Positions 9,352 to 14,310 of a stretch of 64,000 nt of DNA are shown in pieces. Made by a program: the position numbers and the translations under genes. The notes under the pieces were generated by a model. It did no database searches. It was not told the origin of the DNA and saw only the letters and a list, made by a program, of their open reading frames with translations. Numbering within the stretch: the stretch's first letter is position 1; every line of letters starts with the position of its first letter. The stretch comes from Trueperella abortisuis. Lineage in GTDB: Bacteria; Actinomycetota; Actinomycetes; Actinomycetales; Actinomycetaceae. The DNA lies in contig NZ_JAUSQL010000001.1 of NCBI RefSeq assembly GCF_030811095.1, positions 2,108,001 to 2,172,000 on the forward strand, given 5' to 3'.

Positions 9352-9464
9352 GTCGCCTACCGCCAAGATGAGCGGCTCGGAGCGATCCGCACCAGCTAGG
9401 GGCGCTGGCCGCCCGCCCCACACCAGCTATCCACCGCCCCAGAATCGGCTAATTTGCGCCGGTT

Positions 9465-9498
9465 CAGGGGCGGTTTAGCCTGCCCTAAACCACCCCTG
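9465..9498. promoter_or_regulatory. Long inverted repeat in arcB upstream region
   Basis: CAGGGGCGGTTTAG and CTAAACCACCCCTG pair over 14 positions with one mismatch around a 6-base spacer. No T-run follows. A smaller palindrome AAACC-G-GGTTT lies just after (about 9507-9517). It may be an operator or cruciform upstream of the arc promoter. Nothing else is recognisable in 9352-9464. Confidence 0.4.
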
Positions 9499-9572
9499 AT
9501 GAGATTTAAACCGGGTTTGACCTGACGTTTCCTAGCCACGGTTTTTTGGGTCGGTGCACAGTGGTTTCACCG

Positions 9573-9614
9573 CGCCACAACGATGTGGCGAACACGTCCG
9601 CAACGATGCGGACG
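9573..9614 (+). ncRNA. Tandem hexaloop hairpins, candidate ANTAR-type leader RNA
   Basis: Two hairpins stand side by side in the arcB leader. The first is CGCCAC-AACGAT-GTGGCG (9573-9590); the second is CGTCCGC-AACGAT-GCGGACG (9595-9614), with a 4-base linker. The loops are identical while the stems differ but remain perfectly paired. Loop position 1 is A and position 4 is G, the two bases conserved in ANTAR antiterminator targets. The arcB ribosome site follows 11 bases later. No ANTAR protein gene is in the window; the assignment is by structure only. Confidence 0.55.
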
Positions 9615-9639
9615 CAACCATCACCGAAAGGAACCCATC

Positions 9640-10635
9640 ATGCCAGTGTCAATTTCCGGCCGGAACTTCCTCAAGCTCCTCGACTTCACGCCCGACGAGA
9701 TCCGTTATCTCCTACGCCTGTCGAAGCAGTTTAAGGCGATGAAGCTGGCGGGAACCCCTCACAAATACCTCGAGGGCAAGAACATCGTCCTCCTCTTTGA
9801 AAAAACCTCCACTCGCACGCGATGCGCCTTCGAGGTAGCCGGCTACGATCTGGGTATGGGCGTGACTTACCTCGACCCCGGCTCGTCGCAGATGGGCAAG
9901 AAGGAGTCGATTGAGGACACGGCGCGCGTGCTCGGGCGCATGTACGACGGCATCGAGTACCGCGGATTCGCCCAGGATATCGTTGAAGAAATCGGCGCAA
10001 AAGCCGGAGTTCCTGTGTGGAACGGCCTGACAACCGAGTTCCACCCCACGCAGATGCTGGCCGACATGCTCACGGTCGAAGAAAACTTCCCCGATGGGCT
10101 GACGGGAAAGAAACTCGTGTTCATGGGCGACGCGCAAAACAACGTCGCCAATTCGCTCATGGTGGTGTGTGCCAAGCTCGGCCTCCACTTCGTGGCGTGC
10201 GGTCCTAAGGAGCAGATGCCCGCCGAAGACCTCGTGGCCACCTGCCGTGAGATTGCGAAGGAGACACAGGCGCAGATCACCCTGACGGACGATCCGGAGG
10301 AGGCCGTCGAGGGCGCGCACGTGATCTACACCGACATCTGGGTCTCCATGGGCGAGCCGGCGGAGCTGTGGGAGAAGCGCATCAAGCTGCTCGAGCGCTA
10401 CCGCGTGACCACGGAGCTCATGAACAAGGCACGAGAGGACGCGATCTTCATGCACTGCCTGCCCTCCTTCCACGACGTCAACACGACTATCGGCGCCGAC
10501 ATCGCCAAACAGTTCGGGGTGACCGAGATGGAGGTCGCGGATGAGGTCTTCGAATCCTCGCGCTCGCGCGTCTTTGACGAGGCCGAGAACCGCATGCACA
10601 CCATCAAGGCCGTCATGTACGCCACGCTTTCCTGA
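9640..10635 (+). CDS. arcB: Ornithine carbamoyltransferase
   Basis: 331-residue cytosolic enzyme interconverting citrulline plus phosphate and ornithine plus carbamoyl phosphate. Visible motifs: carbamoyl-phosphate site FEKTSTRTRCAFEVA (residues about 55), HPTQMLADMLT, the ornithine loop FMGDAQNNVANSL, and HCLPSFHD with the active-site Cys. ATG 9640 was chosen (GAAAGGA ahead) over an upstream in-frame start that lies in the hairpins. The next gene is carbamate kinase 11 bases on, which marks this as the catabolic (ArcB) form rather than biosynthetic ArgF. Confidence 0.95.
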   Translation: MPVSISGRNFLKLLDFTPDEIRYLLRLSKQFKAMKLAGTPHKYLEGKNIVLLFEKTSTRTRCAFEVAGYDLGMGVTYLDPGSSQMGKKESIEDTARVLGRMYDGIEYRGFAQDIVEEIGAKAGVPVWNGLTTEFHPTQMLADMLTVEENFPDGLTGKKLVFMGDAQNNVANSLMVVCAKLGLHFVACGPKEQMPAEDLVATCREIAKETQAQITLTDDPEEAVEGAHVIYTDIWVSMGEPAELWEKRIKLLERYRVTTELMNKAREDAIFMHCLPSFHDVNTTIGADIAKQFGVTEMEVADEVFESSRSRVFDEAENRMHTIKAVMYATLS

Positions 10636-10646
10636 GGCGGCCATCC

Positions 10647-11582
10647 ATGACAGAGAATATCGTTGTTGCGCTCGGCGGTAACGCGCTGGGCAAGAGCCCC
10701 AAGGAACAGCTCGACCTGATCGCCGCCACGGCATCCCCAATCGCTGATCTGGTGGAGCTGGGCAACCAGGTCACCGTCACCCACGGCAACGGACCACAGG
10801 TAGGCATGATCAAGGTCGCCACTGACGTGGCGGCCAAGTCCTCCACGACGCCGTCGATCCCATTCGCCGAATGCGGCGCCATGTCGCAGGGTTACATCGG
10901 CTACCACCTCCAACAGGCGATCGGCGAACAGCTTCGCTCGCGCGGTATCGACAAGCCGTGCGTGTCGGTCGTGACGCAGGTAGTTGTCGACGAGGACGAT
11001 CCGGCGTTCTCCACGCCCACCAAGCCCGTCGGCGCGTTCTACACGAAGGAGGAGGCCGAGGCGCTCCACGCGGAAACCGGCAACACCTACGTCGAGGACG
11101 CCGGGCGAGGTTGGCGATGGGTGGTCGCATCGCCAAAGCCGGTCTCGATCGTTGAGGCTCCCGTGATCTCATCGCTCGTCGACGACGGCGCCGTCGTCGT
11201 CGCAGCTGGCGGCGGAGGCATCCCCATCGTCGAGGAAAACGGGCACTACCACGGCGTCGCGTCCGTGATCGACAAGGATCGCACCGCCGCGCTCCTCGCC
11301 GGGCAACTCGGGGCGGACACCCTACTCATCCTCACCGCGGTCGAGCAGGCCTACGCCGGTTTCAATACGCCCCATCAGGAAGCCATCTCTCACATGACGA
11401 CGAGCGAGGCTCGAGAGCGCATCGACGCCGGCGAGTTTGCACCCGGTTCGATGCTTCCGAAGATCGAGGCCTGCCTCGAATTCGTCGAGGACAATCCGGG
11501 CAAACGCGCGATCATCACGTCCCTTGAAAAAGCGGCCGACGGCCTCAAGGGCCTCACAGGCACGGTCATCCGGAGCGCATAA
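10647..11582 (+). CDS. arcC: Carbamate kinase
   Basis: 311 residues, amino-acid-kinase fold. It makes ATP from carbamoyl phosphate, the energy step of the arginine deiminase route. Seen: VVALGGNALG at the N-terminus, VTHGNGPQVG (residues about 48), and AAGGGGIPIVEENG, then VIDKDRTAALLA. Ribosome site is moderate (CTGAGG from the arcB end). Its stop shares a base with the start of the next gene, showing translational coupling. Confidence 0.96.
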   Translation: MTENIVVALGGNALGKSPKEQLDLIAATASPIADLVELGNQVTVTHGNGPQVGMIKVATDVAAKSSTTPSIPFAECGAMSQGYIGYHLQQAIGEQLRSRGIDKPCVSVVTQVVVDEDDPAFSTPTKPVGAFYTKEEAEALHAETGNTYVEDAGRGWRWVVASPKPVSIVEAPVISSLVDDGAVVVAAGGGGIPIVEENGHYHGVASVIDKDRTAALLAGQLGADTLLILTAVEQAYAGFNTPHQEAISHMTTSEARERIDAGEFAPGSMLPKIEACLEFVEDNPGKRAIITSLEKAADGLKGLTGTVIRSA

Positions 11583-13156
11583 TGAGCAACGTCAAACAAG
11601 ACCAAGCGCCGCAGGTCGGCGCGCCAAAACGAAAGTTCAAACTGCGGGTTCCGAGCGCATTTACCGTGTTGTTCGTGTTGACGATCATCGCGGCCCTGGC
11701 CACCTGGGCCATTCCGGCCGGCCAGTACGCCAAACTGTCATACGACGCGGACAGCTCGAGCCTAGTGCTCACTCCCCCGAAGGGTGACCCTCAGTCGCTC
11801 CCGGCCGAGCAAAAATCACTGGAGGATCTAGGCGTTGACCTCGACATCACGCAGTTCACTTCCGGTGCGCTAAACAAGCCGATCTCCGTGCCAGGCTCCT
11901 ACGAGCGCCTCGAGCAAAACCCCGCCGGATTCACCGACGTTCCAAGCGCGATGGTACGCGGAACCATCGAGGCCGTGGACGTCATGGTCTTCATCTTCGT
12001 CCTCGGCGGGCTGATCGGCGTCGTGCGAAAAACGGGAGCCTTCGAGTCCGGCCTCGTGGCACTGACGAAACGGACGAAAGGCCACGAGTTCGCGCTCATC
12101 TTCTTCGTCGCAGTGTTCATGTTGGCCGGCGGATCGCTGTGCGGGCTCGAGGAGGAAGCCGTCGCGTTCTACCCGATCCTTGTGCCGATTTTCCTCGCCC
12201 TCGGCTACGACTCGATCGTCTCAGTGGGCGCGATCTTCCTGGCGGGTTCGATGGGAACGACTTTCTCTACCGTCAACCCATTCTCCTCCGTCATTGCCTC
12301 CAACGCCGCCGGCATCCAATTCACCGAGGGCATTTGGTGGCGTTTCTCCGGCCTGATCGTTGGCGGCGTCGTCGTGGTCTTCTACCTCCACTGGTATTCG
12401 AAGAAGGTGAAGGATAATCCGGCCTTCTCCTACACGTGGGAGGATCACGCCGACTTCACCAAGCGGTGGGCGATGAATTCCTCCATGGATGACATCAAGG
12501 ACTTCAACTGGGAAAAGAAGATCATCTTGGTGCTGTTCGTCTCCGCCTTCGTCATCATGGTCTGGGGCGTCATGGCTGCCGGATGGTGGTTCCCGCAAAT
12601 GGCCGCCGCATTCCTGGTAATCGCCATCATCATCATGTTGATCGCCGCCTTGGGCAGGGAGAAACTGTCGGAGAGCGCCCTCGTTGACGCCTTCTCCGAG
12701 GGCGCTTCCTCACTCGTGGCCGTGTCGCTGATCATCGGCCTCGCCCGCGGCATCAACCTGGTAATGAACGAGGGCCTCATCTCGGACACCATCCTGAACT
12801 CGTTGACCACCATGGTGTCCGGCATGTCGGGTCCTCTCTTCATCATCATGCTCATGCTGGTGTTCTTCATCCTCGGCTTCGTGGTCCCGTCGTCGTCGGG
12901 CCTGGCGGTGCTCGCCATGCCGATCTTCGCTCCGCTCGCCGACGCCGTCGGCATGCCTCGCTGGATCATCGTCATGGCATACCAGTACGGCCAGTACGCG
13001 ATGCTCTTCCTCGCCCCGACCGGCCTGGTCATGGCGACGCTGCAGATGCTGAACATGAAGTACTCACATTGGCTACGCTTCGTGTGGCCGATGGTGCTTT
13101 TCGTTCTCGGTTTCGGCGGCGTGCTCTGCGCGACGGCGGTCATCGTCTCCAGCTAG
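11582..13156 (+). CDS. YfcC-type carrier, putative arginine/citrulline-ornithine exchanger
   Basis: 524-residue membrane protein of the C4-dicarboxylate/YfcC family with a short cytoplasmic N-terminus and about 12 membrane spans. Family stretches include GGSLCGLEEEAVAFYPIL, AGSMGTTFSTVNPFSS and FVVPSSSGLAVLAMPI. YfcC members accompany arc genes in many Gram-positives, where they move arginine, citrulline or ornithine; the cargo here is inferred from the operon. Overlaps the end of arcC by one base. An acidic loop between spans 1 and 2 (about residues 45-110) lies outside the membrane. Confidence 0.9.
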   Translation: MSNVKQDQAPQVGAPKRKFKLRVPSAFTVLFVLTIIAALATWAIPAGQYAKLSYDADSSSLVLTPPKGDPQSLPAEQKSLEDLGVDLDITQFTSGALNKPISVPGSYERLEQNPAGFTDVPSAMVRGTIEAVDVMVFIFVLGGLIGVVRKTGAFESGLVALTKRTKGHEFALIFFVAVFMLAGGSLCGLEEEAVAFYPILVPIFLALGYDSIVSVGAIFLAGSMGTTFSTVNPFSSVIASNAAGIQFTEGIWWRFSGLIVGGVVVVFYLHWYSKKVKDNPAFSYTWEDHADFTKRWAMNSSMDDIKDFNWEKKIILVLFVSAFVIMVWGVMAAGWWFPQMAAAFLVIAIIIMLIAALGREKLSESALVDAFSEGASSLVAVSLIIGLARGINLVMNEGLISDTILNSLTTMVSGMSGPLFIIMLMLVFFILGFVVPSSSGLAVLAMPIFAPLADAVGMPRWIIVMAYQYGQYAMLFLAPTGLVMATLQMLNMKYSHWLRFVWPMVLFVLGFGGVLCATAVIVSS

Positions 13157-13329: not shown

Positions 13330-14310
13330 ATGAGCCCCGGAATCAAGGGGGATATCGGGTTGATCGTTTTCTTCTACACCATGATCGTGTTCGTGTGTGC
13401 ACTGTTCATTTCGGCGGTGTCATTCTCGGCTTTTGTCGTCACACGCCAGAAGATGTTTGCGCTCGCAACAGCCGCATTCTTCTGTTATTTCTTCGACGTG
13501 ACCCTGGTGTTTCGTACCGCCTACGTCCACCCGCATAGCTCTGCGGCCAGCAGCCTCTACTCGATCACATCTCCCGTGGAGTCAGTGCTTTTGGGCGCGG
13601 GCGTGTTTGGCTGCCTGTGGGCAATGCAATGCAGGTTCTTGGAACGATCGATGTTGCCTGCAAAGATCGCGGTTGCGCTCTTTGTTCTCGGCTCCGCATT
13701 CGCCTACGTCGTCATAGACACCCCACGAGACCGGGAGTTCGTCTTCTTTACCATGCGTTCGCTCGCGATGCTCGCCATGGTTGCATTCGACGCCTGGGTT
13801 TTCGTACGTACTTCAGATCCAATGGAACGCAAGCGCCAGCTGACTCACATGCCGCTCGTGCTCTACATGTTTGTCGGGGCGCTGGGCACAATCATATGGA
13901 ATCTCTACTTCTTGTACCTTCGGCCAGCACTCGAGGTGACGGGCGCGCCGCCCTTCATGCCCGAGCGCAACTTTGTTGAAAACGCGCTTGTCTTGGGGAT
14001 CGGCTTCTGGTTTGTACGCGTCGCCGTTCGTCGTCTGCAGCTGTTTTACGAAAGCGCCCCGGCTGGGCCCACCCCCGCGCGGGAGAAGTTCCTCGACAAC
14101 GAGGTCCATCTGTTCGCCACGCGCTTTTCCCTCTCCGAACGCGAGTCGCAGATCCTGACCGAGATCATGCGCGGCAAGAGCTACACCGCCATCGCCTCGC
14201 AGCTGTACATCTCGCCGTCGACCGTCAAGGTTCACGTGCACAACATTCTGCAAAAGACCTCCCACAAGGACCGGGACTCGCTCGTTCGTGACTTCTGGCA
14301 CGGGGTGTAG
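13330..14310 (+). CDS. Membrane-anchored LuxR-type transcriptional regulator
   Basis: 326 residues. The N-terminal two thirds carries about seven hydrophobic helices (for example IVFFYTMIVFVCALFISAV and AKIAVALFVLGSAFAYVV). The last 65 residues form a LuxR helix-turn-helix: FSLSERESQILTEIMRGK, then YTAIASQLYISPSTVKVHVHN. No receiver domain. TTG 13360 has a much better ribosome site (AAGGGGG, 8 bases ahead) than ATG 13330, so the protein may be 10 residues shorter. It follows the arc operon on the same strand after a terminator; control of arc genes or an unlinked set is possible. Signal sensed is unknown. Confidence 0.88.
   Translation: MSPGIKGDIGLIVFFYTMIVFVCALFISAVSFSAFVVTRQKMFALATAAFFCYFFDVTLVFRTAYVHPHSSAASSLYSITSPVESVLLGAGVFGCLWAMQCRFLERSMLPAKIAVALFVLGSAFAYVVIDTPRDREFVFFTMRSLAMLAMVAFDAWVFVRTSDPMERKRQLTHMPLVLYMFVGALGTIIWNLYFLYLRPALEVTGAPPFMPERNFVENALVLGIGFWFVRVAVRRLQLFYESAPAGPTPAREKFLDNEVHLFATRFSLSERESQILTEIMRGKSYTAIASQLYISPSTVKVHVHNILQKTSHKDRDSLVRDFWHGV

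Follow-up and report, generated by a model that had tools for sequence, protein, structure and literature searches.

The arcB operon and its upstream region

The window, by which we mean the whole stretch of 64,000 nucleotides analysed here, comes from a Trueperella abortisuis genome assembled as a single contig of 2,447,956 bases. It carries an operon of arcB, arcC and a transporter gene (9640-13156), adjoined by the gene for a LuxR-type regulator (Table 1). No arcA lies between the operon genes, so its carbamoyl donor may be citrulline or some other compound. A second arcB-like gene (G000:C1:1355782-1356756) in the same genome is 52 per cent identical.

Table 1. Features of the arcB leader and operon, with the lacZ leader for comparison (window coordinates unless another sequence is named).
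Feature	Coordinates	Strand	Details
20-bp dyad GGTTTAG-N6-CTAAACC, candidate LuxR-type operator	9472-9491	+	arms identical in the same-species genome G152, centre differs
Second TAAACC box	9507-9512	+	starts 35 bp after the start of the GGTTTA box
GCACAG, possible start-of-transcript region (inferred)	9556-9561	+	also in L182 and the L010 group, not in L187
5' arm with two alternative partners	9561-9568	+	predicted folds only
P1 hairpin	9573-9590	+	CGCCAC-AACGAT-GTGGCG; stem 6 bp, 9573-9578/9585-9590; loop AACGAT, 9579-9584
Linker between full P1 and P2 stems	9591-9594	+	AACA, 4 nt
P2 hairpin	9595-9614	+	CGTCCGC-AACGAT-GCGGACG; stem 7 bp, 9595-9601/9608-9614; loop AACGAT, 9602-9607
Shine-Dalgarno-like GAAAGGA	9626-9632	+	sequence; predicted partly paired in transcript from 9556
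arcB, ornithine carbamoyltransferase, 331 aa	9640-10635	+	TIGR00658 above cut-off
arcC, carbamate kinase	10647-11582	+	TIGR00746 above cut-off
YfcC/DcuC-family transporter	11582-13156	+	PF03606; below its NCBIfam cut-off
LuxR-type (GerE) regulator	13330-14310	+	adjacent to the operon
lacZ-leader dual A1/G4 hairpin	L247 ~16420-16385; G000:C1 near 956400	-	Shine-Dalgarno in second loop

Of the 213 family genomes, 20 have a close ortholog of arcB (E ≤ 1e-140); these represent ten genera and, within Trueperella, only the two genomes of the source species. The operon and its LuxR-type regulator are kept together in all seven of the family regions that were fetched around other orthologs (L204-L210) and in L048; in L206 the regulator gene is upstream of the operon and divergent. 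The region of L047 (labelled Clostridiales) has arcB and arcC only. In G152, the other genome of the source species, some 4 kb that are missing from the window genome at this place separate the preceding gene from the arcB leader, upstream of 9393. Open frames are present on both strands of this extra DNA (L180) and, read by eye, resemble genes for a sugar kinase, an aldolase, a D-2-hydroxyacid dehydrogenase and a DeoR/SorC-type regulator.

Between 9300 and 9800 we found no terminator and no consensus sigma-70 promoter, and the best Rfam match there (E = 0.09) is far below its gathering score. The sequence GCACAG is 49 bp beyond the second box, and 48 bp beyond it in L182. Given this spacing and the retention of GCACAG, transcription likely starts near 9556, upstream of the hairpins. 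Boxes of the GGTTTA or GGATTTA type are paired with TAAACC-type boxes 35 bp away in L009, L182, and L187, and the P1 loop follows the second box by 72, 73, and 74 bp, respectively. Similar boxes occur in L010 (with its near-duplicates) and L192, and a single box in L183 and L011; the leaders of L184, L185, L186, and L193-L197 have none of either type. These boxes, which recur in several genera, are better conserved than the tandem hairpins, and the LuxR-type protein encoded beside the operon is their likely binder.

Structure of the tandem hairpins

Reading the sequence directly and folding it both bear out the initial annotation, which had described two adjacent perfect hairpins sharing an AACGAT loop on unlike, fully paired stems. 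All pairs in both stems are Watson-Crick; a single inserted T-A pair and an A-T/G-C exchange distinguish one stem from the other. The minimum-energy fold of 9560-9630 holds both hairpins (z = -4.05, with none of 200 shuffles as stable); over the longer stretch 9541-9660 the fold reaches a z of only -1.64. A search of the 64-kb window for adjacent A1/G4 hexaloop hairpins whose stems reach at least 5 bp and whose linker does not exceed 12 nt picked out the site in the arcB leader alone. The site is counted once per strand, because AACGAT reads ATCGTT on the opposite strand, again with A at position 1 and G at position 4. No dual A1/G4 hairpin with stems of at least 5 bp appeared in sixty dinucleotide shuffles of the window. 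With this result and the fold z of -4.05, the structure at 9573-9614 is real beyond reasonable chance. In each loop, an A1-U6 pair that closes a tetraloop ACGA is predicted to be 0.7 kcal/mol more favourable than the open hexaloop.

The arcB start codon (ATG at 9640) was read directly from the sequence and lies 25 nt past the 3' end of P2. The ribosome site is outside both hairpins, with the Shine-Dalgarno sequence beginning 11 nt past P2. The 5' arm is predicted to form either a helix GUGGUU/AACCAU (9561-9566/9616-9621), which leaves the ribosome site freer, or a competing helix of GGUUUC (9563-9568) with GGAACC (9630-9635), which covers part of the Shine-Dalgarno sequence. In the predicted fold of a transcript from 9556, the GGA of the Shine-Dalgarno sequence is covered, with unpaired probabilities of 0.06, 0.02, and 0.25. 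For L182 the predicted fold lacks the covering helix and leaves the ribosome site unpaired.

arcB leaders of related bacteria

The twenty ortholog loci reduce to thirteen distinct leaders once this genome, the same-species copy and five near-duplicates (L186, L188-L191) are set aside. For L192, L194, and L197 the protein match begins at residue 2-4, so the 110-nt leader includes 3-9 coding bases. A more distant set provided seventy-nine leaders; the eightieth locus, L103, was dropped because its upstream DNA was too short. The same-species leader has four substitutions within 9393-9639, all upstream of 9481 and none in the hairpins.

The covarying stems that were to be sought in arcB leaders are found in part. 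P1-type hairpins recur with compensatory changes, but the dual A1/G4 form is in none of the thirteen family leaders and none of the seventy-nine distant ones, and among the leaders examined only those of the two genomes of the source species carry it. At the nearest other ortholog (arcB 93 per cent identical), the first base of loop 1 is G and the second hairpin has a long loop. L182, which is probably Arcanobacterium canis (from the name on a LuxR relative), has ACCAC-GACGAT-GTGGT followed by a hairpin with a 17-nt loop. In L187, GGTCAC-GATGAT-GTGACC precedes a 10-bp hairpin with the hexaloop CGCCGT. L184 has TCGGT-TCCGAT-ACCGA and then a 3-bp CGC-AACGAT-GCG, and L192 has TCAAC-TTCTAC-GTTGA and then TGGTCTAC-AAGGCT-GTAGACCA. 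The nine other distinct leaders (L183, L185, L010, L011, L193-L197) have no AACGAT-like hairpin. Counting from the loop and comparing by eye, we see compensatory changes in P1 in two other genera: L182 has one at pair 5 and a mismatch at pair 6, and L187 has compensatory changes at pairs 4 and 6. We also considered the in-frame ATG at 9583 as the start of an upstream reading frame that would add an arginine-rich N-terminus. This candidate was rejected, as by eye the ATG is out of frame in L182 and reads ATG TGA in L187.

A loop within two mismatches of AACGAT, on a stem of at least 5 bp, is found in four of the thirteen distinct non-self leaders against 0.255 expected from shuffles, in a test that was itself set after the leaders had been seen. 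When all 4096 hexamers are used as the query, only twenty-six reach four or more leaders, which places AACGAT in the top 0.6 per cent. The four recurring loops all have G4, and one has A1; retention of G4 is partly expected, because the loops were chosen for their closeness to AACGAT. One leader of the thirteen has an A1/G4 hexaloop hairpin with a stem of at least 5 bp, and single A1/G4 hairpins of at least 4 bp are at chance (1/13 versus 1.07 expected). The loop word NAYGAT is present in 2/13 leaders versus 0.013 expected and in 0/79 distant leaders. Since this word was picked after the matches had been seen, we rely on the looser two-mismatch test.

A search at the level of the order, made for a fresh test, added three more distant arcB genes. 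Together with twenty-seven other loci of other-class arcB genes, these gave thirty upstream regions, with no clear enrichment of AACGAT-like hairpins among them (2/30 versus 0.62 expected). The z of the leader fold is -3.02 in the window genome, -1.57 in L182, -1.07 in L187, -0.35 in L184, and -1.95 in L192, and five further leaders give values between -1.73 and 0.98. Only in the source species is the leader clearly more structured than chance would give.

The ANTAR protein and its kinase

An ANTAR gene, which the initial annotation had proposed to look for elsewhere in the genome, is present. The genome encodes one ANTAR protein (PF03861), a PdtaR-like protein with REC and ANTAR domains (E = 3.2e-22), as well as a PdtaS-type kinase (GAF_PdtaS match, E = 1e-29). 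All thirty-nine genomes surveyed have at least one ANTAR match, so the presence of the gene is weak evidence. The ANTAR protein is 94-95 per cent identical to proteins of Trueperella bernardiae, 91-92 per cent to those of T. pyogenes and 90-92 per cent to those of T. pecoris, and its gene is beside a pyruvate kinase gene (named by eye from its sequence).

The closest solved structure is 1s8n, which we take to be Rv1626/PdtaR of M. tuberculosis. The protein also aligns along its length with 6wsh, presumably EutV. We mapped EutV residues onto it by eye, with the numbering set from the spacing of Y164 and M172. In this alignment R142, K143, K149, E160, M172, and R175 are kept, the position of Y164 is F (as it is in 1s8n), and the positions of K147, R168, N173, and R177 differ. 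The RNA-contacting roles of these residues are those given in PMC8934654.

Searches for further sites

If PdtaR acts through RNAs of this kind, further copies would be expected in the genome, and PMC8164766 predicts twelve ANTAR RNAs for Trueperella. A dual-hairpin covariance model scored the arcB site at 56.4 bits (E = 3e-8) across the whole genome, a score that follows by construction, as the window sequence is one of the twelve rows of the model and the other eleven are its variants. The next match had 17.7 bits (E = 2.7), and there was no further strong site among the best 150 of 2069 first-look candidates, which were those scored. In the 213 family genomes, with thirty-one candidates scored per genome, the only strong matches among those listed were in the two genomes of the source species. 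The forty-three weak matches (E 0.04-0.48) compare with about 100 predicted by chance, a shortfall due in part to strict filters. All twenty-seven that were inspected are in open frames, which carries little weight in GC-rich DNA.

Dual A1/G4 hairpins with stems of at least 4 bp number sixteen in 464 kb (the window and twenty other stretches), counting the arcB site on both strands. Apart from the arcB site, the pair with the longest stems precedes a lacZ-type beta-galactosidase gene, named by eye, and is the only further leader candidate in this sample. We rejected it as a second maintained site, as substitutions in G152 break pairs in both of its stems. Across the candidates scored genome-wide and the 464-kb sample, no further site that is maintained within the species was found. 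In lacZ leaders of other species, an A1/G4 hairpin of at least 4 bp is present in 14/28 versus 1.75 expected, and a dual A1/G4 hairpin in 2/28 (L267 and L279) versus 0.01 expected. These twenty-eight leaders are not independent, because six of the genomes have a common dyad TGTTAACGTCAACA that resembles a LacI-type operator, and four leaders from two genera have ACACC-ANNGNN-GGTGT in common. The enrichment nevertheless does not fit a simple rejection of further sites. Recurring hairpin types, which may be RNA elements or DNA operators, were seen in the lacZ leaders L265-L268, L274, L275, L280, L282, L285, and L288.

Discussion

The initial annotation read the arcB leader as a target of an ANTAR-domain regulator, and this reading is partly supported. 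The dual A1/G4 hexaloops, the linker, the position in a leader and the presence of PdtaR-like and PdtaS-type proteins speak for it, as do the AACGAT-like hairpins of four other leaders and the compensatory changes in P1. Against it stand the restriction of the dual form to the source species among the leaders examined, the loops of the nearest other ortholog, the failure to find a second maintained copy in the part of the genome covered, the lack of a terminator and the placing of the ribosome site outside the hairpins. The pattern in relatives is compatible with ANTAR binding but is not the textbook form, since G4 is kept in four of four recurring loops and A1 in one, and the dual A1/G4 form is absent. 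Our preferred interpretation, to which we would give a little under an even chance, is that the hairpins are a leader control element read through its loops, with the PdtaR-like protein as the best candidate reader.

In such a scheme P1 and P2 would be transcribed as part of the 5' leader of the arcB-arcC-transporter mRNA, and would most likely act post-transcriptionally. PdtaS would phosphorylate the PdtaR-like response regulator, the only ANTAR protein of the genome, and the phosphorylated protein would bind the G4-containing loops. Binding would then alter translation or stability of the mRNA. Loop binding could, for example, shift the balance between the helix at 9561-9566/9616-9621, with the ribosome site free, and that at 9563-9568/9630-9635, with the site partly covered. 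A bolder proposal, which we consider rather unlikely, is that G4 and not A1 is the loop base that is kept. The leader would then be a relaxed ANTAR target of a kind that existing covariance models would miss, and PdtaS-PdtaR would directly control an ornithine/citrulline operon that is patchily distributed in the Actinomycetaceae.

It is also quite possible that the leader is structured for reasons other than ANTAR binding. The hairpins might shield the mRNA at its 5' end, or they might adjust translation by way of the competing base helices, with PdtaR not reading the loops at all. The position and stem of the P1-like hairpin are kept better than A1, and L184, L187, and L192 have tandem hexaloop hairpins without the A1/G4 pair. 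Bases 1 and 6 of the loop can pair with each other (A1-U6 or, by eye, G1-U6), an arrangement that folding prefers in the A1 cases, and the Shine-Dalgarno sequence is predicted to be partly covered. Yet hairpins alone would not need the recurring AACGAT-like loops with G4, and a role for the covering helix is at odds with the fold predicted for L182.

We regard a structure that arose by chance in one lineage and has no function as unlikely. The dual A1/G4 motif is in a single species among the leaders examined, and the comparable motif in the lacZ leader of the source genome is broken in its same-species relative, much as such an origin would predict. The arcB structure is far above shuffle expectation, however, and P1 persists in two other genera, with stem changes that compensate each other. 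These changes also bear on whether the element acts as DNA, with two CCRC-N6-GYGG dyads serving as operator sites for a DNA-binding regulator. Here the centre RAYGAT is kept while the arms change in compensation, the opposite of what is usual for an operator, and the GGTTTA/TAAACC boxes are better operator candidates. The DNA explanation would account for a pattern that is equal on both strands and for a TAAACC box and a P1 loop spaced 72-74 bp apart in L009, L182, and L187, but we find it distinctly improbable.

PdtaR is a widespread actinobacterial ANTAR regulator whose targets are mostly predicted and rarely tested. A strong, compact candidate preceding a defined catabolic operon that has a second regulator in view would allow a clean test of what is required of the loops. 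The initial annotation's suggestion that an arginine/citrulline operon would represent a new target set fares worse than the reading itself. Actinobacterial ANTAR RNAs have been catalogued, and that catalogue (PMC8164766) includes targets in amino-acid metabolism and the twelve RNAs predicted in Trueperella. Its main text also links ANTAR to the Streptomyces gene for agmatinase, an enzyme of arginine breakdown. Judged mainly by title, the papers listed for ANTAR together with ornithine carbamoyltransferase or Trueperella give no report of the arcB site, and none came up for ANTAR domains with arginine deiminase. Among those listed for Trueperella only PMC8164766 deals with ANTAR RNAs, and its supplement may include the site.

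In this catalogue (Mehta and Ramesh 2021, PMC8164766), actinobacterial ANTAR RNAs consist of two stem-loops with A1/G4 hexaloops, as does the arcB leader. Its 4-nt linker fits the range of 2-25 nt in that set, and its stems of 6 and 7 bp exceed the 3-bp minimum for an ANTAR-target RNA. The site is just upstream of an open reading frame for amino-acid metabolism, as some catalogued targets are, and the genome has one ANTAR protein, the number reported there for Trueperella. Part of the known ANTAR RNAs overlap a terminator, a ribosome site or a start codon, unlike the arcB site; about 39 per cent of the catalogued RNAs are likewise intergenic, with no overlap of ribosome site or start codon. 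Another difference is that relatives of the arcB site mostly lose A1, which the ANTAR motif has. The catalogued set was not defined by covariation and conservation upstream of orthologs.

The eut leaders of Enterococcus faecalis bound by EutV also have dual A1/G4 hexaloop hairpins (PMC3369931, PMC8934654). No terminator was found at the arcB leader, and its linker has 4 nt versus 5-12 nt in the eut leaders of E. faecalis, where cutting the linker to 3 nt impaired induction (PMC3369931, PMC8934654). In the structure of EutV, the base G4 is stacked on the protein and A1 has no specific contact (PMC8934654), but changes to A1 impair induction in vivo (PMC3369931). The mycobacterial target RNAs of PdtaR (Mehta 2020, as cited in PMC8164766 and PMC8934654) involve the same type of protein, and control of translation has been proposed for them. 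Their genes are concerned with lipids and redox, whereas those here point to ornithine/citrulline-type catabolism. If the preferred reading is true, the arcB leader would plausibly be an addition to the known ANTAR RNAs and not a new mechanism.
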